DNA of 64,000 bases from Dysgonomonadaceae bacterium zrk40 (GTDB lineage: Bacteria > Bacteroidota > Bacteroidia > Bacteroidales > Dysgonomonadaceae): contig CP070277.1 of NCBI GenBank assembly GCA_016916535.1, forward strand, positions 1 to 64,000, in the 5' to 3' direction. The notes beneath the pieces are model-generated. The model was given only the letters and a program-made list of their open reading frames with translations, had not been told where the DNA came from and did not search any database. This document shows positions 8,945 to 64,000 of the stretch, one piece after another. Position numbers and translations under genes: made by a program. Each line of letters begins with the position of its first letter. Position 1 is the first letter of the stretch.

Positions 8945-9089
8945 ATACTGTCGAAGAGCGGCGCTTTCACGCTGTCTTGGGCAGGATTCGCCTTCTGGCC
9001 AGGCGACCAACCGGCTATTACGACAGCGTCATCGTGCCGACGGCAACTTCCAGGCAGCGAAACTCACCGCGCCATGACCCAAGATGCAC

Positions 9090-16441: not shown

Positions 16442-16469
16442 GTTTCCGTCAACAAAAGGAGACGGAAAC
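16442..16469 (+). promoter_or_regulatory. Hairpin holding the ribosome site, abutting the start codon
   Basis: GTTTCCGTC and GACGGAAAC form a perfect 9-bp stem around the loop AACAAAAGGA. The AAGGA ribosome site is in the loop and the ATG begins on the very next base. The same layout recurs ahead of genes at 56418, 58506, 60711 and 61454. Confidence 0.6.
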
Positions 16470-16643
16470 ATGACGACTATCGATCAGATCAACGAACTTC
16501 GCGCCGAGCTGATGAACTGCGACTTCTCGAAAGTCGAACGGCGGGATGCTGAAGCAGAACTTGAAAAGCTGGAGGCGCAGGCAGTGGCAGAGGAGCTGCA
16601 GTTTGAGCAGGACATGGCAGCCTGGAACGCTGACCTGGAATGA
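16470..16643 (+). CDS. Small acidic coiled-coil protein (57 residues)
   Basis: The product is almost entirely charged helix: MTTIDQINELRAELMNC, then repeated E/A/L heptad-like spacing with ERRDAEAELEKLEAQAVAEE. It ends with tryptophan and NADLE. No family is recognised. The start is supported by the AAGGA site in the leader hairpin and by a perfect terminator-like stem 9 bp after the stop. Small proteins of this kind are common in the backbone of alphaproteobacterial plasmids. Confidence 0.55.
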   Translation: MTTIDQINELRAELMNCDFSKVERRDAEAELEKLEAQAVAEELQFEQDMAAWNADLE

Positions 16644-17845: not shown

Positions 17846-19711
17846 TCAGATCCCCGGCAGTTGCCCGTCGAACAGGTCGTGCGTGTCGCCTTCTATCATC
17901 GCTGTGTTCCTGGGCGTGTCGACCGGATCCATTCCCTTGAGAACGTCAATGGCCTCTTTCGGATAGTTTGCGTCACTGTCCGTCTGACCGGTCTCAGTAT
18001 CGTCGTCAGTCGTGAAACCTTCAAGTCGGCTGGCGGTGATAAGGTCGAGGGTCCATTGCGCTGGCGCTTGGGCATCGCGCGCATGCGGGAGGGTGGTATA
18101 GGGAACGCGCACCTTGTAGACGTCCTCGCCAACGCCGGTGACGAGGACATCGATACCGTTCTTGCGAGGCCCGAGCTGCGTCTCGAATTCGGAACGCTCA
18201 ATCGTGTTCTCGCGCCGCTCGTCGCGCACCCATTCCAGCCCGTTTCCACGTGGCTCACGACGGTTATAGACCACGGTGGCCTGACCGACATCGCTTTCAA
18301 GTCGCTGCGCGGTCGGTCCCGAATTCACTTTGGCGATGATCTTTGTTCCGACGATCGACATCCACGCGTCGGCGCGTTCGCGCCCATAGGTGTCACGGAT
18401 CTGTGCAATATCCTGCACGCCGAGACACACGCAAACCCCCTTCGATCGTCCGATATCCAGTAGCGCGGAAAACCGGCTGATCTTCGGCAGTTGGGCAAAC
18501 TCATCCACGAAAAACCAGATGCGACGGAGCTTGGCATCGCCAAGTTCCGGATCGGACACGATGCCGGAGGCAATGGTAAGAAACGCGCTGATCCAGCCGT
18601 CAGATTGGTCAGAAAACCGGCCAGACTTCTGCAGGATGACGGTGCGCCGATCTGTTTTGTAGAGCAGCCAGTCGCGCAACGAAAAACGTTCCAGACCTTC
18701 ATAATTCGCCCACGCCGTTGCCAGCAGACGCAGCGTGTTCGTATCAGCGGTGAGCGTCGAAAGCGTCGAGGCGACTTGTCGATAGTCAGCATCCAGAAAG
18801 CGAACCGCGTCGGGGTGATAGCGATGCGCGACCTCAAGAAGTTCAAGGTGGTCACGGCGCGTCTCTGCTACCAGATCGGCCCACGTCCACCTTCCGGGGT
18901 TCTCATGCATAAGGCGTATGGTGCACGCGGCCAGCACGGCACGGGCCGAGTTGGAAAAGAACCGATCTCTTGATTCAGGGATCAGTCGCGTGGCCAGCTC
19001 AACGGCATCCTCTGCAATGCGCAGATCCTTGGCGATATCCCAAACATGGGAACGCCGATCCTGTGGAGCGATGATGATTGGCTGCACCCTGGAACCATCT
19101 CCCTTGTCCGTTGGAGGCAGCTTCTCGGTAAAGTCTCCCTTGATATCGAAGACGAGAACCTTGTCATGTCGCGCGATTGCAGAGACGATCAGCCCGATCA
19201 TGGTCTGTGTCTTGCCGCCGCCAATGGAGCCAAAGATGATGAAGTGTCGCACCTCGCGTTCGAGCGCCAGCCGCCATCCATTGAACCAATGAAGGCCGTC
19301 CCTCTTGTCGATCTTTTCGGCTTTTGCGGCTCGTAGCAGTTCGGGCATGCCTGCGACGGTCCGGCCGGACTTGATCCATTTATCCGGTGGCATGAGGAAG
19401 GCAATATAGCCGCCGATCGCAATGGCAAGGTTTCCTGCCACAAGCATGGCAGCCAACAACCATTGCAGTTTAGCCAGATCGGCCGGGACGTAGCCGAGTG
19501 CCTGAATGAAGTGACTTCGGCAAAGATCGGAGGACCAGAATGTGAGGCAGTCGATCGCCTGCGAAACTGATAGGCGGTAGGCCGATCCGTTCGGGGCGTT
19601 CCATGAACGAAGCGCAAAAAAACAAACCCAGACAAGTGCCGAGATGCCCACAAGGAAGAGACCGGCATAGAGCAGAATAGCAAATTCGGAACGTCTGGGT
19701 TTGGTGATCAT
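17846..19711 (-). CDS. Type IV coupling protein (VirD4/TraD-type DNA-pumping ATPase)
   Basis: This 621-residue membrane ATPase has two transmembrane segments (about 11-33 and 84-106). A Walker A GSIGGGKT follows at 161-168, then DIKGDF, and a Walker B WFFVDEFAQLPK near 397. It couples the relaxase-DNA complex to the secretion channel. Its start overlaps the traD stop by 4 bp. It resembles the TraD/TraG enzymes found with MOBQ relaxases rather than the DotL/TrbC type that usually goes with type IVB systems, so the module looks composite. Confidence 0.88.
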   Translation of the reverse strand: MITKPRRSEFAILLYAGLFLVGISALVWVCFFALRSWNAPNGSAYRLSVSQAIDCLTFWSSDLCRSHFIQALGYVPADLAKLQWLLAAMLVAGNLAIAIGGYIAFLMPPDKWIKSGRTVAGMPELLRAAKAEKIDKRDGLHWFNGWRLALEREVRHFIIFGSIGGGKTQTMIGLIVSAIARHDKVLVFDIKGDFTEKLPPTDKGDGSRVQPIIIAPQDRRSHVWDIAKDLRIAEDAVELATRLIPESRDRFFSNSARAVLAACTIRLMHENPGRWTWADLVAETRRDHLELLEVAHRYHPDAVRFLDADYRQVASTLSTLTADTNTLRLLATAWANYEGLERFSLRDWLLYKTDRRTVILQKSGRFSDQSDGWISAFLTIASGIVSDPELGDAKLRRIWFFVDEFAQLPKISRFSALLDIGRSKGVCVCLGVQDIAQIRDTYGRERADAWMSIVGTKIIAKVNSGPTAQRLESDVGQATVVYNRREPRGNGLEWVRDERRENTIERSEFETQLGPRKNGIDVLVTGVGEDVYKVRVPYTTLPHARDAQAPAQWTLDLITASRLEGFTTDDDTETGQTDSDANYPKEAIDVLKGMDPVDTPRNTAMIEGDTHDLFDGQLPGI

Positions 19712-19962: not shown

Positions 19963-20164
19963 TCTCCCGCACGGAACGAAAGGAATGAACCATCTCGGCA
20001 AATGCCGCCTCAAGTTCATTCTCCGAAAGATCAAGGGTTTCGACGCCAGCTTTCATGGCGATTTGTCCAATCCTGATTGCTTCCTTTTCTTCAGCTTCGC
20101 GCAACTGCTTTTGCAGAGTTCTGATCTGGTCACGGATCGCGGAAGGGGATTTTGCGCGTGCCAT
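19925..20164 (-). CDS. traC: Conjugal transfer protein TraC (relaxosome accessory)
   Basis: This 79-residue protein is mostly coiled coil: IRDQIRTLQKQLREAEEKEAIRIGQIAMKAG, then an acidic LSENELEAAFAEM. This matches TraC of MOBQ transfer regions, which helps form the relaxosome. The start at 20164 has AAAAGGAGAAAG upstream. It is the first gene leftward from the oriT candidate. Confidence 0.82.
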   Translation of the reverse strand: MARAKSPSAIRDQIRTLQKQLREAEEKEAIRIGQIAMKAGVETLDLSENELEAAFAEMVHSFRSVRENEQRPSDLAQNA

Positions 20165-20373
20165 GTGCTTTCTCCTTTTCGGCATCAAACGATGAGAAGA
20201 TTGCAGAGATGTTCTGTGTTTGTAAACACCGATGATGCGTGAAAAAGAGCCCATACTGTATAAGATGAATCGGCGGAGCCGATGCCGCACTCCGTCATGC
20301 GAACAAAACGATCGTTTTGTTAAATGCGCACTTATACATTGTTTTCAACAATGTAAGATGGTAGGTCCGTTTC
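20165..20373 (+). other. Candidate origin of transfer (oriT), MOBQ type
   Basis: This 209-bp gap separates divergent traC and traA, the usual oriT position in Agrobacterium-type systems. It holds the perfect 20-bp palindrome AACAAAACGATCGTTTTGTT (20302-20321). Immediately after come TAAATGCGCACTTATAC (20321-20337) and a second repeat TACATTGTT-TTC-AACAATGTA (20335-20355). GCGCACTTATAC differs at one position from the Ti-type nic-region GCGCAATTATAC, and TAAATGCG also occurs at the RSF1010 nick region. The exact nick is inferred. Promoters for both operons must overlap it. Confidence 0.7.
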
Positions 20374-23300
20374 ATGGCGATCTATCATTTGCGCGCTCAT
20401 CAGATATCCCGTGGCAAAGGGCAGAGTGCGGTCGCTGCCGCTGCATACCGCCACGCGACACATATGAACGTCGCGCGCTCCGGAGAGATTGCCGACTACA
20501 GTCGAAAGAAGGGTTGTATCCACAGTGAAGTCGTGTTGCCCGAAGCTGCCCCGCGGTGGATAAATGCCTGGCATGATCGATATTCGCCACATGAGTTTGC
20601 CGAGCGTTTCTGGAACCGTGTGGAAGCCAGTGAAAAGCGCGATGACGCCCAGCTCGCGCATGAGTTTGTCGTCGCACTGCCCGTTGAGTTGTCCGTAGAG
20701 CAGAACAAGGCTCTGGTTCGTGACTTTGTGCGCAATCAGTTTGCGGCGCGTGGGCAGGTCGCAGATTGGAACTATCACGATGCTACAGGGAATCCGCATG
20801 TTCACATCATGGTGGCGTTGCGACCGCTGACCGAGACAGGCTTTGGCTCAAAGCGGGTTCCGGTTCTTGATGGTGACGGTGAACCGGTCCGAAGGCCGCC
20901 AAAGGTGGAGGGCCAAAAGGGGGAAATCGTCTATCAGCACTTCGCGGGTTGGAAGGACCGCCTGCCCGAGATCCGCGCTGCCTGGTCGCAGGTGGTCAAT
21001 CGTCATTTGGTCCAGCATGGATATGACACGACAGTTGATCATCGCAGCTTCGAAGATCGGAAAATTCCGCTGGAGCCGACGACGCATCGCGGCCCCGCCG
21101 TCGACGACATGGAGGCGCGCGGCATTCAGACCGAGATGGTCCAGCAGCACCAGCAGGTCATGCGTGAGAATTTCCGCAGGCTGGCGGAAGATCCTGCGCT
21201 TGTTCTGAAAATGATCACTGCGGAAAAGTCCGTTTTCGATGAACGTGATGTTGCAAAGTTCATCCACCGGTATGCGTCAACGTCTGAAGAATTTTCCGGG
21301 CTTTTCCTCCGGGTCGGTGCGCTCGAAAACCTTGTGACGCTTTCCCAGGAAATCCGCGACCCGTTCACGAACAAACTTCTTGAACGGGAGAAGATGACCA
21401 CGCGAGAAGTCCTGCAGATGGAAGCGCAGATGATCGATGGCGTCCGTCAGCGCGCGACGGATCAGTCTTTCGGTGCCCCGCCGCGTCAGGTTGAAAAGGC
21501 GATCGCGGACTTCTCGAAGTCGCACGGGTTTTCCCTTTCCGGCGAACAGGCGATGGTCGTTCACGCCGTCACGTCCGATCGCGGCGTATCGACGGTGGTC
21601 GGCTATGCGGGAGCGGGTAAATCCACGGTCATGGACGTCGTGCGGGAGGTTTACGAAGGGCAGGGGCGTCGTGTGGTTGGCGGAGCGCTTGCCGGAAAGG
21701 CAGCCGAGGGCCTGTTTGAATCGGCTGGTATCGAGAGCCGGACGCTGGCGTCCTGGCGCTTGTCGTGGGAACACGACAAGCGCCGACTTCAGAAAGGCGA
21801 CGTGTTCGTTCTGGATGAGGCAGGAATGGTCTCTTCGAGCGACATGGTGATGTTGGTTGATGCGGTTAACGCGGCGCAGGCCAAGCTTATTCTTGTCGGG
21901 GACGCGCGGCAGCTTCAGCCTATTCAGGCTGGCGCTGCGTTTCGCGCCATTGCGGATAATACCGGGTTTGTCGAGTTGACGGAGGTGCGCCGGCAAAGGG
22001 AAACATGGATGCGGGACGCTTCTCTCGCATTCGGGCGCGGTGAGAGCCGCGCGGCGCTTCAAACTTATGCAGACAACGGGCACATTCGTCTTAAGGGCCA
22101 TCGTGACGATGCCATGTCTGAGTTGGTTGGTGCGTGGGGAGCTGATTGGCGCGCCGGCGCCGATACGCTGATGCTGGCGCACACCAAGGCCGCGGTGTTC
22201 AGTCTGAATGAGCGGGCACGCCTGACCATCAAAGCCCACGGGGGGCTTCAAAATGAAGTGACGTTTGACGCGGTTCGTGGCCCGCGCGCTTTCGCCGTTG
22301 GCGATCGGCTGTTGTTCCTGGAAAACAATCGTGACCTTGGCGTCAAGAACGGAATGCTGGCAACCGTGGAAAAGGCGAATGACGGCATTCTTGACGTTAG
22401 GCTCGACAACGGCAGGATCGTTGCGGTCAACCATGAGCATTACAACAACGTTGATTATGGCTACGCGACGACGATCCATAAGTCGCAAGGGGCGACCGTC
22501 GATCGGGTGCATGTGCTTGCCACACAGATGATGGATGCCCAGCTTTCCTATGTCGCGCTTTCGCGTCATCGCGAGGCGGTCACACTTTATGCCGGCCGGA
22601 ATGACTTTCCTGAAATCAAGGATTTGCTGAACACGCTGTCGCGCGACCGGCTCAAGGATTCAACGCTGGCCTATGCGCATACGCCCGACTATCAGCTCGA
22701 ACGTGACGCGTTTGTGCGTCGGCGCGACCTTCCGGACATTGGCGAACTGCGCGATCTTTGGCGTCGATCGCTCGATGCCATGCGTTCGCGGTTCGCGGCT
22801 ATTGCGGAACGGTTCAGAGCAATTTCCGAACGGCTTTCGCTTGCGCGTCCGCAAGCGGTTGACGTCTCGCCGAATGTCCCGCCTGCCGACGGCGCGCGGC
22901 CTGTTGAAGCTGAAAAAGAGATCAGGCTTCCTGAACTGACGCCAGCGGTCAGCCAGGCGCTTTCGCGGCTTTCGGAAGTGGACCGCAACACGAACGGCTA
23001 CAGCGGCAAACGGGGGCGCTGGTTCCGCGCTGCCGAAACCGAGCTGACGCAGATGTCATCAGCGACCGATCTGGTGATGTTCAATGACCAGATCGCAGCG
23101 CTCGTTTCCCCGGTGGAAGTTCGATCTCTTGGTCGCGATCCGGATGACGACAAGCTTCAGTCGCTTGTCGCGCATCTTCCGCCATCGGCGCAGACCTTCA
23201 TCAAGAGAAACTGGCAGCTCGTGCATGTCGGTCAGCTGGCCGCCGACGACAAGAGCCGCGTTGATGTTGCGTCGGTCATGGTCACGGAGCGGCGCGATGC

Positions 23301-54976: not shown

Positions 54977-55567
54977 TCAAAGCGCCTTCAGCATGTCGGA
55001 CACCATGGCCCGTGCCGATATGACCCTTGCACTGTTGCCCTCAAGCCCCGCCCGCGTCATAGCACCTTCCAGCAAGAAGGCGATGTGTGCTGCAAGGCTT
55101 GACACACGGTGAAAGTCATCCGGTACAATCTCGGAAAGATGTTGAGCGACGATGTTTTCTACCTGTTCCTTGTGCCGCCGAACGGCCTCGCGACCGGCAT
55201 CGCCCGCCTCAAGTTCGGCCGCCGCATTTAACAGCCCACACCCGCGAAATCCACGCTCATAGGCGTGTTCAGCGTGATCCTGATAGGCGTCAAAGACGGC
55301 TAGGATGCGTTCTTTCGGATGGGATGCCGTAGCTTCTCGCGCAGCGTAAAGTGCCAGCCATTCCGCATGCCTCGCTTCGATATACTGGTTCACCAGATCA
55401 GCCTTCGAGGCGAAATTATTGTAAAGGCTCTTTTTCGCCACCCCCGCGCGTTCCACGATGGCGTCTATGCCGGTCCCGCCGATGCCATGATTGTAGAATA
55501 GGATCATCGCGGCCTGTATGAGGCGGTCGTGAGCACTGATTTTCGGTGTGGCGTCTGGCATGGTCAT
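54977..55567 (-). CDS. TetR-family repressor
   Basis: This 196-residue regulator has the TetR helix-turn-helix near 12-55 (AAMILFYNHGIGGTGIDAIVERAGVAKKSLYNNF). Its ligand domain has RILAVFDAYQDHAEHAYERGFRGCGLLNAAAEL, of the YxaF/LmrA-like branch. It likely represses itself and the exporter by binding the dyad at 55585-55604. Confidence 0.9.
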   Translation of the reverse strand: MTMPDATPKISAHDRLIQAAMILFYNHGIGGTGIDAIVERAGVAKKSLYNNFASKADLVNQYIEARHAEWLALYAAREATASHPKERILAVFDAYQDHAEHAYERGFRGCGLLNAAAELEAGDAGREAVRRHKEQVENIVAQHLSEIVPDDFHRVSSLAAHIAFLLEGAMTRAGLEGNSARVISARAMVSDMLKAL

Positions 55568-55584
55568 TAGTTGCTCCTAGAATA

Positions 55585-55604
55585 TAGGTAGACCAGTATA
55601 CCTA
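55585..55604 (-). promoter_or_regulatory. TetR-type operator
   Basis: The perfect dyad TAGGTA-N8-TACCTA lies 18 bp before the tetR start. It sits where a TATACT or TATATT -10 for the operon would be read on the minus strand. Confidence 0.65.
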
Positions 55605-55733
55605 CAAAACAGAGGTGGGCACAAGGGCAAAGTCCATGGTGGACGAATGTTGGGAATGTCCGCAGTGACTGACAGTCAGACTTCGAGAACGGTGCACTTA
55701 ATCAGAACTTCTGAGTTCCTCGAAACGCTCTGA

Positions 55734-55841
55734 TTATGCCGAACTGCTGCAAGGCAGAACGCAGGTGCGAAAGCCACCAAACCGGCCATGCGGCATAACC
55801 CGTCTTACGGCATAATGACCCTTATGCCGATATCGGCATAA
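55734..55841. repeat. Right terminus of the RIT element: five CGGCATAA octamers
   Basis: The octamer CGGCATAA occurs three times on the plus strand (55791, 55808, 55834) and twice inverted as TTATGCCG (55734, 55822). The last pair forms the perfect 20-bp palindrome TTATGCCGATATCGGCATAA (55822-55841). Clustered direct and inverted sites fit binding of several tyrosine recombinases. The ardC homology resumes directly after it. Confidence 0.6.
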
Positions 55842-55842
55842 G

Positions 55843-56127
55843 TCTCACGCTACCAGCCATGCAGGCCGGCTTGATCGGAATCAGAGGTTTTGCCGCAAAG
55901 CCGACCTCGCCTTCGAGGAGCTTTGTGCCGAAATCGGTTCCGCCATGCTTTGCGTTTCACTGGATCTGGTCCCCGACTTTTCACAATCGGCGGCCTATGT
56001 GGAGAGTTGGCTTCGATCACTGAAGAACGACAAGAAGTACATCTTCCGCGCCGCGAGCGAGGCCCAGAAAGCAGCGGACTATCTTCTGCAGGCGTCTTGC
56101 GAACAAACCACCCAACATGCGGCATGA
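55843..56127 (+). pseudogene. C-terminal remnant of an ArdC-type antirestriction protein
   Basis: The frame from about 55843 reads SHATSHAGRLDRN, then KADLAFEELCAEIGSAMLC and AAYVESWLRSLKNDKKYIFRAA, ending QTTQHAA. This is the end of the ArdC metallopeptidase-like domain that protects incoming plasmid DNA. The zinc motif HExxH at its start is destroyed and everything upstream is RIT DNA. The 5' part was not found in the window. Confidence 0.7.
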
Positions 56128-56151
56128 GGTGCCCGAAAATCTTAGCAAATC

Positions 56152-56187
56152 AAACGGGCTTCGCCGCCGCGCGAAGCCCGTTTTTTT
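56152..56187 (+). terminator. Strong rho-independent terminator
   Basis: AAACGGGCTTCGC and GCGAAGCCCGTTT make a 13-bp perfect stem with a 6-base loop, followed by further T residues. It lies 24 bp after the ardC remnant. Confidence 0.9.
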
Positions 56188-56349
56188 GTTGCGGCACCTG
56201 CCTCGAACAGGGGTTTCGCCAAAGTGGGGGCCTTGGCTGCGAAATGTCCGCAACAAGACTTATGCAACATATGAAAGAACAAAAAACAACCGAAACGTTG
56301 ATTTTGCCAGCTGTGTCGGTTTCACTGATCGATAGAGCAAGAGTTCAGC

Positions 56350-56417
56350 GAAGCCCGGTTGCCGGGCTTCCAAAAGGAGAGAAAGTCTTTCCTCCCGGCC
56401 GATACCGGAGAACAGCA
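56350..56417 (+). promoter_or_regulatory. Dual-hairpin leader of the parB-like gene
   Basis: Tight hairpin GAAGCCCGG-TTG-CCGGGCTTC (56350-56370), then GAGAAAG (56379-56385), then a second stem CTCC(C)GG...CCGGAG (56392-56410). The 3' arm of that second stem contains the GGAG ribosome site. The ATG follows 7 bases later. The layout is shared with the leaders at 58438 and 61385. Confidence 0.6.
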
Positions 56418-58379
56418 ATGACCTCGAACGCCATCAAGATCATCCCCGTCAGGCAGCTCGCGCTCAGCCCGCTCAACGTTCGCAAGACCGAGGCCGGCGC
56501 AGCCGCCGACGCGGAACTGAAAGCCTCGATTAAGGCCGACGGCGGCATCAAGCAAAACCTGCTCGTCTATCCCGCAGGCAAGAACAAGTTCCTGGTTCAT
56601 GGCGGCGGTCGTCGGCTGAAGCAGCTGCAGGTGCTGATCGACGAAGGCGCATTGCCGGCCGAAACGGCTGTACCCTGCAAGGTCGAGACCGAAAAGCAGG
56701 CTATCATCAGCTCGACCACGGAAAACGTCGTGCGTGCCAATATGCACCCCGCTGACCAGTATGAAGCCTTCGCGGCGATGATCGAAAAGGGCTTTAGGAC
56801 CACCGAAATCGCCAATCAGTTCGGCGTGACCGAAAACCTCGTGCAGCGCCGCCTCAAACTGGCCGAGGTCGATCCGGTTCTTCTCACTGCTTTCCGCAAC
56901 GACGAGCTCTCCCTGGACGCGCTGACGGCGTTCACGATCTGCAAGGACCGGAGCCGGCAGGTCGAGATCTTCGAGCAGCTCAAGTCTACCTATCACGGCA
57001 TCAACGCCTATCAGGTTCGCCACCTGGCTACGGAGGACGAAGTGTCGGCGAGCGATAATGTCGCCCAATTTGTCGGCGTCGATGCTTACACGGCTGCCGG
57101 GGGAACGGTGCGCAGGGATCTGTTTTCCGAAGCTGACAACGTTGTTCTTGAAGATGTTGCATTGTTGCATCGTCTGGCGACCGAGGCATTGAACGCCGAG
57201 GCGGAGAAGCTGACGGGAAAGTGGAAATGGGTCGATGTGCATCTGTCGGTCACCTATGACCAGTATATGCGCTATGGTCGCGAATACCCGCTCCCCGTCG
57301 AGCCGGCCCCCGAGGATCAGGCCAAGCTCGATGCCTTGAACGGCGAGATCGAGGAGATGGAGGAGATCGGCGAGGAGGCTTGGACCGACGAGGTGCAGGC
57401 GCGCTGGGATCAACTCCATAACGATCTGGAGGCGCTATCCGCAGACGTGAAGCGGTCGGAATACACCGATGAACAGCGCGCCCGGGCAGGCTGCGTTGTG
57501 TCCATCGATCACCGCGGGGCGTTGAGGGTTGAGACCGGTCTGGTGCATCCGGACGACAAGCGGCAGCAGATTCGCTCCGGCGGCTCTGAAACGATGTCGG
57601 CCGAGGAAAAACGCAAGGAGGCCGGCGTGTCGAATTCGCTTTCGGCGGATCTGCGTGCGATCCGGCATCAGAACCTACAGGCCCACCTTGCCAGCGACTA
57701 TCAAACTGCCTTCGACGCGATGCTCTATTCGATGATCGTCCGCCTGCCCATCGCCTATGCCGCCGCGCCGATCGATATCTCGATGCGTCAGGCGGAGGTC
57801 TTCAAGAGCCGTGAATATCTGGAGGATACGATCGCGGCTGCCATGCTTGAGGAAATCAAGAACACGCTCGACCTGTCGTGGATCTCGCTCGAAAGTCCGC
57901 AGGACTTCATCACGATGTCGGCTCTGCCGATGGAAAAGAAGCAGGCGCTGTTCGCCTGGGCGACGGCGCAGGCTGTTCAGCAGCAATTGGCCAACGATGA
58001 CCATAGCTCGCCGGTTCTTGAGGAGATCGGCCGCCGTTGCAGCACTGATGTTGCAAATTGCTGGCGTCCGGACGCGAAAAACTACTGGTCGCGCGTCCCG
58101 AAAAAGCATGCCCTTTCCGTCGCCGCGGAAGTTATCGGTCAGAAGTGGGCCGATGAGCGCCGCGACTTCAAGAAAGACGCGCTCGCCGCCTCGATGGAAG
58201 CGGCTTTCCGGGAGGGCGCTGACGAACGGGTCGGCATCGATCCGGAAACGGCCAGGCGCACCGCGCGCTGGCTGCCCGACGGCATGGCCTTCGAAAGTTC
58301 TGATGAGCAGCCGCAGGGCGAGGTCGAAAACCCGAAGCCCGATGTGCTGCCGGCGTTCCTGAAAGCCGCCGCTGAATAG
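56418..58379 (+). CDS. Large orphan ParB/RepB-like plasmid protein
   Basis: This 653-residue protein has an N-terminal ParB/Srx nuclease-type domain (KIIPVRQLALSPLNVRKTE, then FLVHGGGRRLKQLQVL near 60-75 and ENVVRANMHPADQYEAF) and a helix-turn-helix TTEIANQFGVTENLVQRRL near 130-148. The remaining 450 residues are of unknown fold. No ParA is nearby. ParB-like proteins of this length are common in plasmid leading regions, where partition, nuclease or anti-defence roles are suggested. The start is 56418, not the longer open frame. Confidence 0.85.
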   Translation: MTSNAIKIIPVRQLALSPLNVRKTEAGAAADAELKASIKADGGIKQNLLVYPAGKNKFLVHGGGRRLKQLQVLIDEGALPAETAVPCKVETEKQAIISSTTENVVRANMHPADQYEAFAAMIEKGFRTTEIANQFGVTENLVQRRLKLAEVDPVLLTAFRNDELSLDALTAFTICKDRSRQVEIFEQLKSTYHGINAYQVRHLATEDEVSASDNVAQFVGVDAYTAAGGTVRRDLFSEADNVVLEDVALLHRLATEALNAEAEKLTGKWKWVDVHLSVTYDQYMRYGREYPLPVEPAPEDQAKLDALNGEIEEMEEIGEEAWTDEVQARWDQLHNDLEALSADVKRSEYTDEQRARAGCVVSIDHRGALRVETGLVHPDDKRQQIRSGGSETMSAEEKRKEAGVSNSLSADLRAIRHQNLQAHLASDYQTAFDAMLYSMIVRLPIAYAAAPIDISMRQAEVFKSREYLEDTIAAAMLEEIKNTLDLSWISLESPQDFITMSALPMEKKQALFAWATAQAVQQQLANDDHSSPVLEEIGRRCSTDVANCWRPDAKNYWSRVPKKHALSVAAEVIGQKWADERRDFKKDALAASMEAAFREGADERVGIDPETARRTARWLPDGMAFESSDEQPQGEVENPKPDVLPAFLKAAAE

Positions 58380-58405
58380 ATCCCATCACCACCAGGTCTC
58401 CGGTG

Positions 58406-58441
58406 GACGGTCGCTCTCAAGTTAGAGGGCGGCCGTCTTTT
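58406..58441 (+). terminator. Terminator of the parB-like gene
   Basis: GACGGTCGCTCT pairs with AGGGCGGCCGTC over 12 positions (three G-T pairs) around an 8-base loop, followed by four T. It overlaps the start of the next leader hairpin. Confidence 0.75.
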
Positions 58442-58505
58442 CCGTGAACGGAAAACAAGAGCGAGAAAGTTGTTTTCTCCGCCGTTCGATACGGAGACAA
58501 AACCC
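58438..58505 (+). promoter_or_regulatory. Dual-hairpin leader of the gene at 58506
   Basis: Tight hairpin TTTTCCGT-GA-ACGGAAAA (58438-58455), GAGAAAG (58463-58469), then stem GTTTT-CTCCG...CGGAG-AC-AAAAC (58472-58503) with the ribosome site in its 3' arm. The ATG is 2 bases later. Confidence 0.6.
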
Positions 58506-59063
58506 ATGCGAGCTTACAGACCGAAACGAGAAGACTTCATCCCCGAAGGTGCTGACGTGCGTTCCGATCCGGAATCCGATGCCGTCGCCTATCTGTTCGA
58601 AAACCGCGGCAGGCCCTGCGCCAAGCTGTTCGTCGACAAGCGCGCGCGCCCCGAGTGGCATTACTGGTTCAAAAGCCCGGAAGCGCGCGAGAAGCGGATC
58701 GAAGAAGGCTTCCAGGACCGCCGCAGGACGCTTGCGTGCAAAAAGCGCTATCGGCCGTCAAACGCCGGCATCGAGATTGGCCATATCTTCGTGGCGTCCT
58801 GGGGCTATGATCAGACAAACGTCGATTTCTGGCAGGTCACAAAGCTCATCGGCAAGTCCATGGCCGAGGTCCGACCGATCGGATCGATCGACGCGTCGAG
58901 CGAGAATGAGGCGCCGATGACCGAGCATGTCGTTCCGTATGCCGACCACTTTATCGGTCCTGCCCGTCGCGTCAGAATCTCCAACAGCGGTTTCAACCCG
59001 GAATCCTTCATTCATGCCCGTCTGTGGGATGGAAAGCCGTGCTACGCTTCGCACTACGCTTGA
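58506..59063 (+). CDS. Conserved-looking plasmid protein of unknown function
   Basis: This 185-residue soluble protein starts MRAYRPKREDFIPEGADV. It contains AYLFENRGRPCAKLFVDKRARPEWHYWF and ASWGYDQTNVDFWQVTKLIG, a repeated Trp/Tyr pattern suggestive of a compact beta fold. It ends HARLWDGKPCYASHYA. No named family is recognised. Its last 35 codons are duplicated at 59890-59997 beyond the VapBC pair. ATG 58506 is set by the leader. Confidence 0.65.
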   Translation: MRAYRPKREDFIPEGADVRSDPESDAVAYLFENRGRPCAKLFVDKRARPEWHYWFKSPEAREKRIEEGFQDRRRTLACKKRYRPSNAGIEIGHIFVASWGYDQTNVDFWQVTKLIGKSMAEVRPIGSIDASSENEAPMTEHVVPYADHFIGPARRVRISNSGFNPESFIHARLWDGKPCYASHYA

Positions 59064-59081
59064 AATCTCACATCCGGCCTA

Positions 59082-59101
59082 GTATATGCTTCTGTATATA
59101 C
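59082..59101 (+). promoter_or_regulatory. VapBC operator-like inverted repeat
   Basis: GTATAT-N8-ATATAC lies 22 bp before vapB in an AT-rich stretch that could also supply the -10. AGGAGG precedes vapB. Confidence 0.5.
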
Positions 59102-59123
59102 AAAATTCTGACAGGAGGTTATC

Positions 59124-59384
59124 ATGCCCCAGCCCCAAGCGTCCGAAGCACGCGAAGCCAAGTTGTTTCGCAACAACAAGAGTCAGGCGGTTCGTATCCC
59201 GGCCGATTTCGAACTTCCGGGCGACCGTGTGCTGATACATCGGGAGGGAAGCCGACTTGTGATCGAACCTGCCCCCAACAAAAATCTTCTGAACATTCTG
59301 GCGCGACTGAAGCCGCTCGGCCCTGATGACCAGTTCCCCGACGTCGATGAGACCCTGCTGCCAGCAAGGGAAATCGACCTTTGA
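59124..59384 (+). CDS. vapB: VapB-type antitoxin (AbrB/SpoVT fold)
   Basis: This 86-residue protein has the swapped-hairpin AbrB domain: AKLFRNNKSQAVRIPADFELPGD near 12-34 and REGSRLVIEPAP. The tail KNLLNILARLKPLGPDDQFP would wrap the PIN toxin. A perfect AGGAGG site is upstream. Its stop overlaps the TTG start of vapC. Confidence 0.9.
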   Translation: MPQPQASEAREAKLFRNNKSQAVRIPADFELPGDRVLIHREGSRLVIEPAPNKNLLNILARLKPLGPDDQFPDVDETLLPAREIDL

Positions 59385-59785
59385 GCCGCCTTTACATGCT
59401 CGACACGAATATCGTGTCGGATCTCGCGCGTAATCCGGCCGGCGCCGTCGTCGGCCATATCGCTGATGTCGGGCAGGATATGATCTGCGTCAGCATTATC
59501 ACCGCGGCTGAGCTATGCTATGGCTGCGAACGCAAGGGGTCTGCCAAGCTGACAGCCCAGGTCGAGGCCATTCTTGGCGGCATGCAAATACTCGCATTGG
59601 ATGCGCCAGCACATGCCCGGTACGGCCGCATCAGAGCAGGCCTCGAAGCAGCCGGTACGCCCATCGGTCCAAATGATCTTCTGATTGCAGCCCATGCCTT
59701 GGCTGTCGATGCTGTTCTGGTGACAGCCAATACGCGCGAGTTTTTGCGAGTGCCCGGCCTCGAGGTTGAGAACTGGATAGCATGA
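59381..59785 (+). CDS. vapC: VapC PIN-domain RNase toxin
   Basis: This 134-residue PIN nuclease has the acidic metal-binding residues in MLDTNIVSDLAR (D8), SIITAAELCYG (E near 43), GPNDLLIAAHAL (D near 96) and TANTREF. VapC toxins cut tRNA or rRNA. The frame begins with TTG overlapping the vapB stop (TTGA); ATG 59396 is the alternative. Confidence 0.9.
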   Translation: MSRLYMLDTNIVSDLARNPAGAVVGHIADVGQDMICVSIITAAELCYGCERKGSAKLTAQVEAILGGMQILALDAPAHARYGRIRAGLEAAGTPIGPNDLLIAAHALAVDAVLVTANTREFLRVPGLEVENWIA

Positions 59786-59848
59786 GCTCAATCCCGGAAA
59801 ATGCCAGATCGTTGCTGCTAAGCTCTTGAGGAGGCCTCGCAACCTTTC

Positions 59849-59997
59849 CTGAGCATACAGCCAAGGCCAGCCTGGCAGGCCAGCTCATCGGGTAGGCCCG
59901 GCGCGTCAGAATCTCCAACAGTGGCTTCAGCCCGGAATCCTTCATTCATGCCCGTCTGTGGTATGGAAAGCCGTGCTACGCATCGCACTATGCGTAG
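59849..59997 (+). pseudogene. Duplicated 3' end of the gene at 58506
   Basis: The frame reads SEHTAKASLAGQLIG, a TAG stop, then ARRVRISNSGFSPESFIHAR and LWYGKPCYASHYA. The last 100 bp are nearly identical to the end of the 58506 gene, while the part before is diverged. It is a remnant of a second copy left on the far side of VapBC. Confidence 0.75.
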
Positions 59998-60011
59998 GTG
60001 TAATCTATCGG

Positions 60012-60040
60012 TTGACATATGTAATCAGATTGATTACGGT
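60012..60040 (+). promoter_or_regulatory. higBA promoter with operator palindrome
   Basis: TTGACA (60012-60017) is 17 bp from TACGGT (60035-60040). The dyad GTAATCA-GAT-TGATTAC (60021-60037) fills the spacer and overlaps the -10. The toxin ATG is only 6 bases after the -10, suggesting a leaderless message. Confidence 0.7.
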
Positions 60041-60046
60041 TCTGTC

Positions 60047-60322
60047 ATGATAAAAGGCTTCGCCAACAAGCAACTCAAGGCGCTGTGGGAGACGGGAAAG
60101 TCGAAAATAGACGCCCGTCTTCACAAGCGAATCCTGCTGCGCCTCGATGCTTTGGACGCGGCTTCAAGGCCGGAGGATCTAAACATTCCCGGCTTCAATT
60201 TTCATAGCCTCACCGGTTTTAGCCCAACCCGCTATACGGTGCATGTCAATGGCCCCTGGTGCGTGACATTCGAGTTCGAGAATGGTGACGCCTATGTGGT
60301 CGACTTTGAACAATATCACTGA
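60047..60322 (+). CDS. higB: HigB-type toxin
   Basis: This 91-residue RelE-superfamily toxin has IKGFANKQLKALWETGKS, LLRLDALDAASRPEDLNIPG, RYTVHVNGPWCVTFEFENGDAYVVDFEQYH, the usual HigB pattern. It cleaves translated mRNA at the ribosome. It begins at ATG 60047 and is followed after 12 bp by higA. Confidence 0.92.
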   Translation: MIKGFANKQLKALWETGKSKIDARLHKRILLRLDALDAASRPEDLNIPGFNFHSLTGFSPTRYTVHVNGPWCVTFEFENGDAYVVDFEQYH

Positions 60323-60334
60323 GAGGTGACGATT

Positions 60335-60634
60335 ATGGCCCGCAATCCTGACCGCTGCCCGTCGCATCCGGGCGAATTGTTGCGTGAAACCGTTATCCCG
60401 GCCACGGGCAAGTCCATCAGCGAGATCGCCCGTCTTCTTGGCATATCGCGTCAGCAGCTCCATGCCATCCTGGCAGAGCGAAAACCGGTCAGCCCTGAAG
60501 TTGCTGTTCGACTTGGCAAACTGTTCGGTAATGGCGCCGGCCTCTGGCTGCGCATGCAGAGTGCCTATGATACCTGGCACGCCGAACGCACCGTCGACGT
60601 ATCCAGCATTCCGACGCTCGATACGGCAGCATAG
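60335..60634 (+). CDS. higA: HigA-type antitoxin
   Basis: This 99-residue Xre-fold antitoxin has HPGELLRETVIPATGKSISEIARLLGISRQQLHAIL and KPVSPEVAVRLGKLFGNGAGLWLRMQSAYD, the diagnostic HigA block. It should bind the dyad at 60021-60037. The start follows GAGAGG; a GTG at 60326 is possible. Confidence 0.93.
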   Translation: MARNPDRCPSHPGELLRETVIPATGKSISEIARLLGISRQQLHAILAERKPVSPEVAVRLGKLFGNGAGLWLRMQSAYDTWHAERTVDVSSIPTLDTAA

Positions 60635-60648
60635 AAGTTGCCTTGCAA

Positions 60649-60710
60649 AAAGCGCCGCCTCGATGTTCGAGGACGGCGCTTTCGCCGTGCATCTGAACAA
60701 GGAGCACGGC
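60649..60710 (+). promoter_or_regulatory. Two hairpins between higA and the gene at 60711
   Basis: AAAGCGCCG-C-CTCGA-TGT-TCGAG-GA-CGGCGCTTT (60649-60682) is a long stem that could end higA transcription. GCCGTGC-N13-GCACGGC (60684-60710) has AAGGA in its loop and abuts the next ATG, as in the other leaders of this window. Confidence 0.6.
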
Positions 60711-61289
60711 ATGTTTGAACTGCACCGCGAAACCCTCAATGACAAGACAATCCGGATCATCCCCGATCCCGATCCGATGAACCCGCGTGTCGAGTGCGAC
60801 ACGCTGGGCACGATGATCTGCTGGCATCCCCGCTATAACCTTGGAGACAAGCACAGCTATCGCAACAATCAGGAGCTGTTCATCGCTCTTGCCGGCTATG
60901 AAGATGAAGCACCTTTCGATCTGGAAGCGATCGAAAAACGCGCTCTGCGAAACGCGATCATCCTGCCGCTGTACCTCTATGACCATAGCGGCCTAACGAT
61001 GAACACCAATGGATTTTCCTGCCCGTGGGACAGCGGTCAGGTCGGATACGTTTTCGTCACACTCGAAGACGCCAGGACTGAATTCAGCGCCAAGCGGCTA
61101 TCCTCCAAAATGCGCGAGCGCGCGATCGACATTTTGCGGGCGGAAGTGGATGTTTACGACGCCTATCTTCGTGGAGACTATTGCGGTTTTGAGATCATGG
61201 GCGACGACGATGAAGTCATCGATTCATGCTGGGGCTTTTCAACAATGGCTGACTGCCTGACGGAAGCGCGTAGCGTTCTCGCCGCATAG
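60711..61289 (+). CDS. Acidic plasmid protein of unknown function
   Basis: This 192-residue acidic protein has ICWHPRYNLGDKHSY, IILPLYLYDHSGLTMNT, WDSGQVGYVFVTLEDARTEF and a last segment DVYDAYLRGDYCGFEIMG. This is the pattern of a widespread family on plasmids and phages without known activity. It is acidic overall, as DNA-mimic anti-restriction proteins are, but that is only a guess. ATG 60711 is set by the leader. Confidence 0.7.
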   Translation: MFELHRETLNDKTIRIIPDPDPMNPRVECDTLGTMICWHPRYNLGDKHSYRNNQELFIALAGYEDEAPFDLEAIEKRALRNAIILPLYLYDHSGLTMNTNGFSCPWDSGQVGYVFVTLEDARTEFSAKRLSSKMRERAIDILRAEVDVYDAYLRGDYCGFEIMGDDDEVIDSCWGFSTMADCLTEARSVLAA

Positions 61290-61309
61290 GCATCTATCAA
61301 TCGAAAATC

Positions 61310-61340
61310 AAAAGCCGTCCGAACAACCGGGCGGCTTTTT
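61310..61340 (+). terminator. Rho-independent terminator
   Basis: AAAAGCCGTCCG and CGGGCGGCTTTT form a 12-bp stem (one G-T) with a 6-base loop and a T run, 20 bp after the stop. Confidence 0.88.
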
Positions 61341-61384
61341 CTATGTTGCGGTTCGCCTTCGAAGCCAAAAGCAAGAGGGGGACC

Positions 61385-61453
61385 GGGAAGGTTTGAACCT
61401 TCCCAGGACAGAGAAAGGGGAGGTCTCAACCGTCAACCAAGCCGGAGATCCCC
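61385..61453 (+). promoter_or_regulatory. Dual-hairpin leader of the methyltransferase-helicase gene
   Basis: Tight hairpin GGGAAGGTT-TG-AACCTTCCC (61385-61404), GAGAAAG (61411-61417), then stem GGGGA-GG-TCTC...GAGA-TCCCC (61417-61453). The GGAG site lies in its 3' arm, and the ATG starts on the next base. Confidence 0.6.
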
Positions 61454-64000
61454 ATGACCATCGTCGAAGCCTTTACGACCGGAACCCCCGTCACCGATGA
61501 TCCCGCCGCCATTTTGAACGCAGGAAGGGTCTTGTTGCCAATCCTCGAAAGCGGGACCAGCATCTCGTCATCTGCGTTGCGTGATGCCATGGAACGAGCC
61601 TCAGGTGGTTCCGATACAGACGGAACCTGGCTGTGGAAGCACGCCTACGAAGCTGCCGAATGCGCCCAGGTTCTGTTCCTGCAAAAGTACGGCGCCACCA
61701 TGCGCAAGCAGGCGAAGACGCCGCAGCAACTGGTGACGATGATCGAGACCATCGCCAGCCTGTCGCCGAGCCAGACGAAGCGCTCCGATGAATCTCAGGC
61801 CCTTCAACAATTTTCCACTCCCCTGCCCATAGCATTCGCCGCCGCGCACGCGGCGGCGATCACCGCCGACGACCATGTTCTCGAACCATCGGCCGGCACG
61901 GGACTTTTGGCTGCTTTCGCCGCCATAGCCGGCGCAGACCTGCATCTCAACGAGATTTCGCAAACGCGCGCAGCCTTGCTGACTGAGCTGTTCGCCGGAT
62001 CAGACGTTACCCGCCATGATGCCGGCACAATCCATGACCGGCTCAACCCGTCGGTCGATCCGTCGGTCATTCTCATGAACCCGCCATTTTCGGCCGCCCC
62101 GGGCGTCACTCGCCGTTACAGGGCCGCGACCGCGCATCATTTGCGCTCTGCCCTCGCCCGACTTCGCCCTGGCGGCCGCCTTGTGTTGATTTCCGGCGCT
62201 TCCTTTACGGCGCAGTCGCATTCGTGGCGCTCGTTCTTCAACGACCTGCAGCAAACGGCTTCAGTTGTCTTCACCGCTTCGATTTCGGGCAAAGCCTATG
62301 CCCGGCATGGCACGACCGTCGAGACGCGCCTGACCGTGTTCGACAAGGTGCCGCAGACGGTCGAGCCGCTAGCGTTTGCGCGCTGCGAAACCGCGGGCGA
62401 GCTGCTGGACCTTGTGGTTGAGCACTGCCCTGCCCGACTGGCAACGACGACTTCCTCGACAACGCCGCACCCGGCTCCGGCCGCCCCGGCATTGGCACAG
62501 ATCCGCGCCAAGGCACGCGCGACCGTTAAAACCTCGACAGCGCATCCCCTGGACAACGCCGAGATCTGCGACGTCGCCTATCAGGCCCGCGACGACATCA
62601 GCGCTGGCGGTCAGGGCTCCGATGAAATCTATGAGCCCTACGAGGTTCAGACGATCGCGATCGATCACGCCAAGCCGCATCCTGGCGAACTGGTTCAGTC
62701 GGCCGCCATGGCGTCCGTACAGGCCCCGCTTCCTTCTTATCGGCCCCGCCTTCCAGCGCAGCTGATAGCCGATGGCGTCTTGTCAGCCCCTCAGCTCGAA
62801 ACCGTGATCTATGCCGGCGAGGCCCATGAGACGTTTCTGAAAGGCACTTACGATGTGGTCGACGACTTTGCGTCGATCCAGCCGGCAAAGGTTGAAGCCA
62901 GCGCGTTTTCGGTCGAAGCGCTGCCGGAGGACGCCTCGAAGACCGTCCTGAAAAGCGCACGGTTCCGGCGCGGTTTCTTTCTCGGTGATGGGACCGGTTG
63001 CGGCAAGGGTCGACAGGTCGCGGCCGTCATTCTCGACAACTGGTTGAAGGGGCGCCGTAAGGCGCTGTGGATCTCGCGCAGCGACAAGCTCATCGAGGAT
63101 GCCCGGCGTGACTGGCAGGCGCTCGGCGGCGTGGCCGCCGATATCATTCCGATTTCAAGTTTTCCGCAAGGACGGTCGATCCCTGATCAGCCGGGTATTC
63201 TGTTCGTGACCTATGCCACGCTTCGCAGCCAGGCCAGGCAGGACAAGAAAAGCCGCCTTGCGCAGATCCTCGACTGGATCGGTCATGACTTCGACGGTGT
63301 GATCGCGTTCGATGAAGCCCATGCAATGGCCAATGCCGTCAGCGCCAAAGGCGAGCGCGGCGAACGCAAGCCATCGGAGCAGGGTCGCGTTGGGCTTCTC
63401 CTGCAGAATGCCGTTCCGAGCGCGCGCGTGCTCTATGTGTCGGCGACCGGAGCCACAACGGTCAGCAATTTGGCCTATGCCTCACGGCTCGGCCTTTGGC
63501 AGACCGGCGACTTTCCGTTCAGCACGCGGGCCGATTTCATCGCCTCCATGGAAGACGGCGGGATCGCCGCCATGGAGGTGATTTCACGCGACCTGAAGGC
63601 GCTTGGCCTCTATACGGCTCGCCTGCTTTCGTTCAAGGATGTCGAGTATGAGATGCTCGTACATGAGCTGACCGAGGCACAGACCGAGATCTATGACGCC
63701 TATGCCAACGCGTATCAGATCATTCACCAGAACCTTGAGAAGGCGCTGGAAGCCGTCGGTATCACGGCGGACGGAGCAACGCTTAATCCGCGCGCCAAAA
63801 GCGCCGCGCGATCGGCGTTCGAGGGCAACAAACAGCGGTTCTTCAACCATCTGATCACCGCGATGAAATGCCCTTCGGTGTTGCGGGCGATCCAGGCGGA
63901 CATCGATGATGGTCATGCGCCCGTCGTCCAGATCGTCTCGACCGGCGAGGCGCTGATGGAGCGCCGTATCGCGGAAATCCCGCCATCGGAGTGGAACGAC
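61454..64000 (+). CDS. DarB/strawberry-notch-like methyltransferase-helicase (runs off window)
   Basis: The first 849 codons are visible. Residues about 110-290 form a class I SAM-dependent methyltransferase: motif I VLEPSAGTGLL and motif IV LMNPPFS, as in N6-adenine enzymes. From about 430 an SF2 helicase of the strawberry-notch type follows: FFLGDGTGCGKGRQ (Walker A-like) and IAFDEAHAM (DEAH). The same fusion is found in phage P1 DarB, an anti-restriction protein, and in many plasmid genes. A long C-terminal part presumably follows. Confidence 0.85.
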   Translation, partial: MTIVEAFTTGTPVTDDPAAILNAGRVLLPILESGTSISSSALRDAMERASGGSDTDGTWLWKHAYEAAECAQVLFLQKYGATMRKQAKTPQQLVTMIETIASLSPSQTKRSDESQALQQFSTPLPIAFAAAHAAAITADDHVLEPSAGTGLLAAFAAIAGADLHLNEISQTRAALLTELFAGSDVTRHDAGTIHDRLNPSVDPSVILMNPPFSAAPGVTRRYRAATAHHLRSALARLRPGGRLVLISGASFTAQSHSWRSFFNDLQQTASVVFTASISGKAYARHGTTVETRLTVFDKVPQTVEPLAFARCETAGELLDLVVEHCPARLATTTSSTTPHPAPAAPALAQIRAKARATVKTSTAHPLDNAEICDVAYQARDDISAGGQGSDEIYEPYEVQTIAIDHAKPHPGELVQSAAMASVQAPLPSYRPRLPAQLIADGVLSAPQLETVIYAGEAHETFLKGTYDVVDDFASIQPAKVEASAFSVEALPEDASKTVLKSARFRRGFFLGDGTGCGKGRQVAAVILDNWLKGRRKALWISRSDKLIEDARRDWQALGGVAADIIPISSFPQGRSIPDQPGILFVTYATLRSQARQDKKSRLAQILDWIGHDFDGVIAFDEAHAMANAVSAKGERGERKPSEQGRVGLLLQNAVPSARVLYVSATGATTVSNLAYASRLGLWQTGDFPFSTRADFIASMEDGGIAAMEVISRDLKALGLYTARLLSFKDVEYEMLVHELTEAQTEIYDAYANAYQIIHQNLEKALEAVGITADGATLNPRAKSAARSAFEGNKQRFFNHLITAMKCPSVLRAIQADIDDGHAPVVQIVSTGEALMERRIAEIPPSEWND

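Follow-up and report, generated by a model that had tools for sequence, protein, structure and literature searches.

A predicted family of structured 5' leaders ending at the start codon of ParB-like, DarB-like and anti-restriction genes on alphaproteobacterial plasmids

The first 64,000 nucleotides (nt) of contig CP070277.1 from Dysgonomonadaceae bacterium zrk40, hereafter the window, hold several genes whose start codons are preceded by hairpins that enclose the ribosome-binding site. Are these hairpins one element, and at which level would they act? The original prediction treated five such leaders as a single recurrent structure. Our comparison with leaders from outside the window indicates that three of them, leaders A, B and C, before a ParB-like gene, a gene of no known family and a DarB-like gene, are real members of a widespread family of structured 5' leaders, whereas the other two, D and E, appear to be a hairpin of another kind.

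The family was defined from outside sequences. Leaders of homologous genes on plasmids of Agrobacterium, Phaeobacter, Methylocystis and Blastomonas carry a GA-rich box, a hairpin, GAGAGAG and a Shine-Dalgarno sequence (SD), features not seen by eye at other starts of those plasmids or at the ParB starts of three further loci (L027-L029). An alignment of the DarB-like protein gave 80 loci, the best 80 of 571 confirmed stretches, belonging to Hyphomicrobiales, Rhodobacterales, Sphingomonadales, Caulobacterales and Rhodospirillales as judged from record names. DarB starts were located in 78 of them (L057 and L069 were left out). Sixty of these leaders make up alignment A2, the source of covariance model R1, and 18 were omitted as divergent or duplicate. 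At E <= 1, R1 matched 16 of the 18 omitted leaders (it missed L038 and L109, and L085 duplicates a training sequence), together with many further genes. A pattern of box 1, box 2, SD and start codon, with A or G allowed at four box 1 positions, matched the coding strand 148 times and the opposite strand not once in 1,432,477 bases from 91 sources; 141 matches are distinct, and box counts taken from them are not independent because the pattern fixes the boxes. In these matches, 25-37 nt (median 34) separate the end of box 1 from box 2, and 18-37 nt (median 28) the end of box 2 from the SD. In A2, which was not selected by the pattern, conservation is complete or at least 90% both at the eight AGAG positions of box 1 and in the AGAGAG of box 2. 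Alignment A3, from which model R2 was built, comprises 55 distinct pattern matches of the ParB/ArdC class, at most 92 nt long, out of 90 lying away from the DarB starts located before; the window and loci L001, L002, L023, L024, L031-L033, L038, L040 and L041 were left out of it, and A2 is likewise free of sequences from the window, L001 and L002. At E <= 1 R1 has 158 matches and at E <= 0.05 R2 has 113, every one of them on the coding strand. A looser pattern (GAGAAAG, GGAG, ATG) was too weak to be useful, with 49 places in the assembly against 24 when reversed, and was dropped.

The family so defined is about 85-100 nt long; it opens 5' with AGAGNNAGAG (box 1), followed by a long hairpin whose GA-rich apex includes GAGARAG (box 2), then by the SD and the start codon. 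Within the window, covariance-model matches that end at the start codon single out A and B (R2) and C (R1), and box 1 together with box 2 is found in A and C, B having box 2 and a weak box 1. Leader A, of the ParB/ArdC class, spans 56334-56420 including the start codon on the + strand (28.4 bits with R2, E 9.7e-6; also a pattern match), with box 1 AGAGCAAGAG at 56334-56343, a local hairpin at 56350-56370, box 2 GAGAAAG at 56379-56385 and the SD GGAG at 56407-56410. Leader B, of the same class, spans 58418-58508 on the + strand (24.3 bits with R2, E 1.2e-4), with the weak box 1 CAAGTTAGAG at 58418-58427, GAGAAAG at 58463-58469 and GGAG at 58493-58496. Leader C, of the DarB class, spans 61368-61456 on the + strand (24.7 bits with R1; also a pattern match), with box 1 AAAGCAAGAG at 61368-61377, a local hairpin at 61385-61404, GAGAAAG at 61411-61417 and GGAG at 61444-61447. 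Scanned over the whole window, R2 returned A (56334-56419) and B (58418-58507) before a next match at E 0.87, and R1 returned C (61368-61456) at E 0.0027 before a next match at E 1.9; models built from outside sequences thus recover A, B and C beyond chance, with a clear gap behind them. In the 3.47 Mb assembly, R2 found only A and B at E <= 1, with 150 of 921 first-look candidates scored. The order originally described for these three leaders, of hairpins, GAGAAAG and a 3' part bearing GGAG, is present in the sequence, and so are the hairpins, but the 5' limits drawn for them are too short, as members extend further to a box 1 of the AGAGNNAGAG type at 56334 and 61368 and a weaker one at 58418.

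The claims that these leaders are under selection for structure and share an RNA-level element gain support, for A, B and C, from covariation in relatives. In the ParB/ArdC class, a first helix (H1) pairs YYCGYGACGGG with CCCGUCGCGGA and extends into the SD, and an apical hairpin (H2) has the arms CCGAGAG and CUCUCGG around the loop AGAGR, with GAGARAG lying in one arm and the loop. Across A3, 92.6% of pair cells pair, compared with 37-55% in slides of the alignment; double changes occur in 12 of 20 pairs, with 53 double-change cells against 13 in shuffled alignments. RNAalifold alone recovered both helices (15 pairs, 9 of them compensatory) but left out the four outer pairs leading into the SD. 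In the DarB class, predicted folds place GAGARAG at or near the apical loop. There, an inner helix, GAGCCGG:CCGGCUC, joins the loop of the first hairpin to a stretch downstream; it is 89% paired, shows double changes in 6 of 7 pairs and was also found by RNAalifold alone (6 pairs, 5 compensatory). Inner and middle helices together hold 49 double-change cells against 23 in shuffles. For both A3 and A2, no slide and hardly any shuffle reaches the observed pair counts. A second pairing of the DarB class, GAGAGCG:CGCUCUC, is kept in 91.8% of cells with double changes in 3 of 7 pairs; as it crosses the long hairpin, it would be an alternative fold or a pseudoknot. Single A2 sequences are predicted to fold at -38.2 to -58.1 kcal/mol (60 of 60), most of them, by eye, as one long hairpin with GAGAGA near the apex. 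Compared with 169 other gene starts in these loci, the leaders have more structure, with a minimum free energy (MFE) of about -0.43 per nt against -0.35 (p ~1e-11). The closest relatives, five Martelella plasmids, are 94-100% identical and too similar for a test of pairing.

Several observations weigh against this reading. R1, R2 and the structures used for pair counts derive from the same alignments, which favours them, and minus-strand matches do appear at weaker E values (from 0.99). The outer pairs that reach the SD vary mostly one-sidedly, and 19 of 55 leaders leave the outermost one unpaired. The middle helix of the DarB class, GGGACGGG:CCCGUUCC, is paired in 80.7% of cells with double changes in 3 of 8 pairs, and the nine double-change pairs of inner and middle helices together were equalled by 146 of 500 shuffles. 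The window members are remote from the models (24-28 bits), and their folding-energy z-scores are uneven (A -3.8, C -1.9), that of B being unremarkable (-0.95). In the pairing P2, A·C is hardly avoided (G·U 14, A·C 7, compared with 22 and 9 when shuffled). Finally, pairing of the SD is not a signature of the family: the median probability that the SD is unpaired is 0.47 in 58 DarB leaders, 0.25 in 90 non-DarB leaders and 0.30 in 169 controls. Relative to the controls, the SD is thus more accessible in DarB leaders (p 0.0004) and slightly less so in the others (p 0.004). For this reason plain masking of the SD is an insufficient account, and SD sequestration as a general mechanism was set aside.

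Could the leaders nevertheless switch between folds, as had been suggested? Predicted energies put the local hairpin of leader A at -35.0 kcal/mol and an H1 of the family type at -32.3. For leader B, the family H1 (-23.8 kcal/mol) is predicted to be more stable than the first local hairpin (-21.9) or both hairpins originally described (-20.1); the MFE fold contains this H1, made of GAACGG:CCGTTC and UCCGU:ACGGA, the latter involving the SD. The best fold of leader C is predicted at -32.4 kcal/mol, compared with -28.1 when the local hairpin is forced. With alternative folds predicted to lie 1.9 to 4.3 kcal/mol apart, a switch is possible.

Whether the element acts as RNA or as DNA can be approached through the mismatches that its helices tolerate. 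The pair cells of A3 contain 141 G·U and 23 A·C (162 and 50 when shuffled), and the inner helix of A2 contains 40 and 3 (49 and 18). A·C is thus avoided more strongly than G·U, which fits a fold of the coding-strand RNA. It also speaks against a second proposal, namely that the leaders are single-stranded DNA promoters of the Frpo/ssi type, or priming sites, for expression right after conjugative entry. The genes concerned do resemble those of leading regions (ArdC, ArdB, ParB), and Frpo elements are described, in a passage of PMC11541004, as secondary structures that precede anti-defence genes of plasmids. However, such promoters are defined by -35 and -10 hexamers in folded single-stranded DNA, and none were seen in the leader consensus; nor did the 75 nt 5' of box 1 in 148 leaders reveal a conserved promoter composition or promoter-like columns. 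In 5.4 kb, one promoter-like site was found, away from any leader, against 1.6 in shuffles. Furthermore, the elements contain the SD and end at the start codon, and leaders A-C lie 36-41 kb from the likely oriT. We consider this explanation highly improbable, and the original suggestion of single-strand promoters is not upheld. The leaders stand before single genes. In 50 of 144, an upstream reading frame of at least 60 codons either stops no more than 15 nt from box 1 or overlaps it; the same was seen at 12% of random places (3000 drawn) and at 33 of 176 positions 90 nt before other starts. These upstream stops and the missing shared promoter fit elements that would lie inside operons and act after transcription.

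A further explanation is that the leaders serve processive antitermination or read-through of terminators between cistrons. Terminator-like hairpins do stand 5' of leader A (56152-56183, + strand) and 28 nt 5' of box 1 of leader C (61310-61339, + strand), and the 100 nt upstream contain such a hairpin in 18 of 148 leaders, compared with 2.4% of random places. In the other 130, however, the scan found no such hairpin, and a leader that lies 3' of the terminator and ends at the start codon fits translational control better. Antitermination is therefore very unlikely in our view. We regard it as likely, from the comparative evidence, that A, B and C belong to a cis-acting RNA leader family which ends at the start codon and exerts post-transcriptional control, gene by gene, through a shared trans factor. 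Each leader would act on the messenger RNA after transcription and set translation initiation of its own gene. The trans factor, probably a protein, would most likely read the AGAG boxes and shift the leader between folds; ParB-like, DarB-like and anti-restriction genes would thereby be controlled together.

Two other readers of the boxes deserve attention. The 3' tail of 16S rRNA is CU-rich, and the AGAG boxes might be ribosome standby sites that pair with it, the hairpin bringing them beside the SD with no special factor involved. The purine-rich boxes at the 5' end and the apex would suit such a role, as would the SD, which lies close to box 1 where the hairpin has its foot. Yet among the 141 distinct pattern matches AGAGAG occurs 133 times and AGAAAG, the better complement of the tail, 8 times, and so precise a box before a limited set of genes exceeds what a standby site needs; this account seems unlikely to us. 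Small RNAs with anti-SD loops exist in Alphaproteobacteria, and one with CUCUC loops could pair with the boxes and regulate all these messenger RNAs, the two or three AGAG copies per leader offering seeds. Each box is only 6-10 nt long, however, and we hold this to be quite unlikely. DUF736 was considered as the trans factor and rejected: it occurs in 13 of 16 R2-positive genomes of the class sample described below and is absent from G068, G073 and G074, as a plasmid marker would be rather than a needed partner.

The 148 pattern matches precede genes for DarB-like (65), ParB-like (51), ArdC (14), DUF6878 (5), ArdB (4), RadC (3) and other (6) proteins. The DarB count reflects DarB-based sampling and a few loci are near-duplicates; labels come from one Pfam-scanned member per cluster, DarB being labelled from the searches with the window gene, and only the 148 matches were counted, tallies with L113-L149 having been dropped as their strand was unchecked. 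A 147-base query taken from a ParB leader, of which 65 bases are coding, matched 276 plasmid records, 155 of them typed as conjugative, and 210 cover at least 80% of the query. These records and the ParB-like, DarB-like, ArdC, ArdB and RadC genes downstream support the plasmid link that had been supposed. At least five alphaproteobacterial orders, by record names, have the family, and many elements carry several copies. Under stricter filters, which scored no more than 17 or 18 candidates in any genome, R2 at E <= 1e-4 matched 16 of the 240 genomes in the class to which G001 belongs, and R1 nine, all within those 16. Among plasmid records with ParB homologues, again under stricter filters, R2 matched none of three from beta- and gammaproteobacteria and 8 of 12 others. 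The family may reach beyond Alphaproteobacteria; R2 matched 34 of 398 genomes of the phylum sample. Some matches lie on chromosome-sized contigs of 4.9-5.4 Mb. The family thus extends beyond free plasmids, and these copies are perhaps integrated elements. More tentatively, and at somewhat less than even probability, the leaders may form an RNA regulon of alphaproteobacterial plasmids and integrative elements, in which one trans factor reading the AGAG boxes would let ParB-like, DarB-like, ArdC, ArdB and RadC proteins be translated together from genes scattered over the element, for instance while it establishes itself in a new host, without a promoter for each gene.

As separate observations, plasmid pMM259 (L001), one of the five closely related Martelella plasmids, carries an extra leader copy before ardC (18816-18902), a gene not seen at that place in the window plasmid, and R2 matches seven sites in the whole pMM259 record compared with two in the window plasmid. 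The Ancylobacter plasmid pLGM (L029) has a near-identical leader of about 110 nt 5' of positions 8992, 13841 and 15398, before three different genes, without AGAG boxes.

Does the family correspond to a known system? It matches no family of Rfam 15: none reached its gathering score in the window or in L023-L026, and lax scans of window positions 55500-64000 and eight loci gave no relevant family and no radC row. In the open-licence literature searched, no printed description of the leader family was found, and in PMC8632094 the terms sought led to passages on reporter plasmids only. The radC RNA motif stands before radC and anti-restriction genes, and some of our leaders also precede radC, ardB and ardC. 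This motif (RF01754), a candidate cis-regulatory RNA of Proteobacteria according to a table in PMC2864571, exceeded its gathering cut-off in none of nine leader-bearing genomes or records; sub-threshold matches occur in eight of these nine and in 6 of 14 control genomes. One radC-model match in G001 (33 bits) lies inside an open reading frame without boxes, the best one of pMM259 likewise lacks boxes, and both were discarded. The STAXI motif (RF01728), found near ssb, antirestriction and integrase genes and with an RNA role argued in the same paper, differs in its tandem pseudoknots and its occurrence in Enterobacteriales, and had no Rfam match in the window or the scanned loci. EGeRS1 of pLS20-family plasmids is described in PMC8708921 as a conserved element with strong secondary structure that precedes several establishment genes, one of them ardC. 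Like our leaders, it is one repeated structured element before several genes, ardC among them. Unlike them, it belongs to Bacillus and is multi-branched and 400-600 bp long, whereas the alphaproteobacterial leaders are about 90 nt, with one long hairpin and AGAG boxes; no region of the EGeRS1 type was seen here, the conserved stretch measuring 85-100 nt and the 75 nt 5' of it lacking conserved columns.

Leaders D and E stand apart. The original set of five divides into three and two because GAGAAAG is absent from D and E, and neither R1 nor R2 matched them in the window at E <= 10. What was described of their hairpin does hold: leader D (60684-60713, + strand) pairs GCCGTG (60684-60689) with CACGGC (60705-60710), leader E (16442-16472, + strand) pairs GTTTCCGT (16442-16449) with ACGGAAAC (16462-16469), and in both AAGGAG lies in the loop and the ATG (60711 and 16470) begins on the next base. 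What does not hold is their membership in the class of A, B and C. Homologues of leader E keep the pairing with other letters in two groups: GTTGACGTC:GACG-a-TCAAC occurs in three of four Agrobacterium/Sinorhizobium sequences, the fourth (L167) having one mismatch. Of three fetched Rhodobacterales homologues of leader D, L168 has the full stem GTCGAT:ATCGAC, L170 five pairs and L169 four; two further sequences of the same context, L032 and L036, have a 7-bp stem. Perfect stems of at least 7 bp flush with the start and with the SD in the loop number 22 in 2955 starts of open reading frames against 6 in shuffles, a count that includes D and E and several homologues of each other or members of the same family. 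These data give modest support to a second kind of hairpin, with the SD in its loop and its stem flush with the ATG, that would be kept in homologues.

The window covers 64 kb of a 166,348-base contig that, over the queries used, matches plas-001 of Martelella lutilitoris ZRK001 (NZ_CP066787.1) at 100%, window coordinates being 104588 minus the coordinate of that record. Genes A, B, D and C form a single row on the + strand, 3' of the hairpin at 56152-56183. The ParB-like gene A (56418-58379, 653 amino acids) matches NCBIfam ParB models below their cut-offs and no Pfam family at E 0.001. Its RefSeq start lies 147 nt 5' of the ATG used here (56271-56418) and would make leader A coding; the start at 56418 is favoured because the leader family ends at a start codon there. 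Gene B (58506-59063, + strand, 185 amino acids) gave no family in a family search and has homologues about 40% identical on Agrobacterium/Rhizobium plasmids. The toxin-antitoxin pairs MazE/PIN and HigB/helix-turn-helix are located between genes B and D. Between the PIN and HigB toxins, positions 59896-60006 look by eye like a decayed repeat of gene B's 3' end (58960-59063), as though insertion of the toxin-antitoxin block had duplicated this tail. Gene D (60711-61289, + strand, 192 amino acids) is of unknown family, and its RefSeq start at 60663 falls inside leader D as originally drawn (60649-60710). The DarB-like gene (61454-64000, + strand) encodes a methyltransferase and an AAA_34 helicase of the 'strawberry notch family' and continues past the end of the window. 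Gene E (16470-16643, + strand, 57 amino acids) is also of unknown family. From gene order, the gap between traA and traC in a Ti-type transfer region (20164-20374) is the likely oriT, about 4 kb from leader E. In the phylum assigned to the window's own assembly, R2 gave one weak match (E 0.002) in 147 other genomes. As R2 is nearly absent from that phylum, yet the window contig equals the record of a Martelella plasmid, the 3.06 Mb main contig of the assembly may not be Martelella, by mixed assembly or conflict of labels.

From other groups, structured RNAs are already known that precede genes for plasmid establishment and anti-restriction. The leader family described here bears on where genes start, the annotated ParB start lying 5' of the leader in the window plasmid. 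Through it, a plasmid could exert joint RNA-level control over its ParB-like, DarB-like and anti-restriction genes. A short, repeated leader would offer a compact system for how an incoming element times its anti-defence genes.

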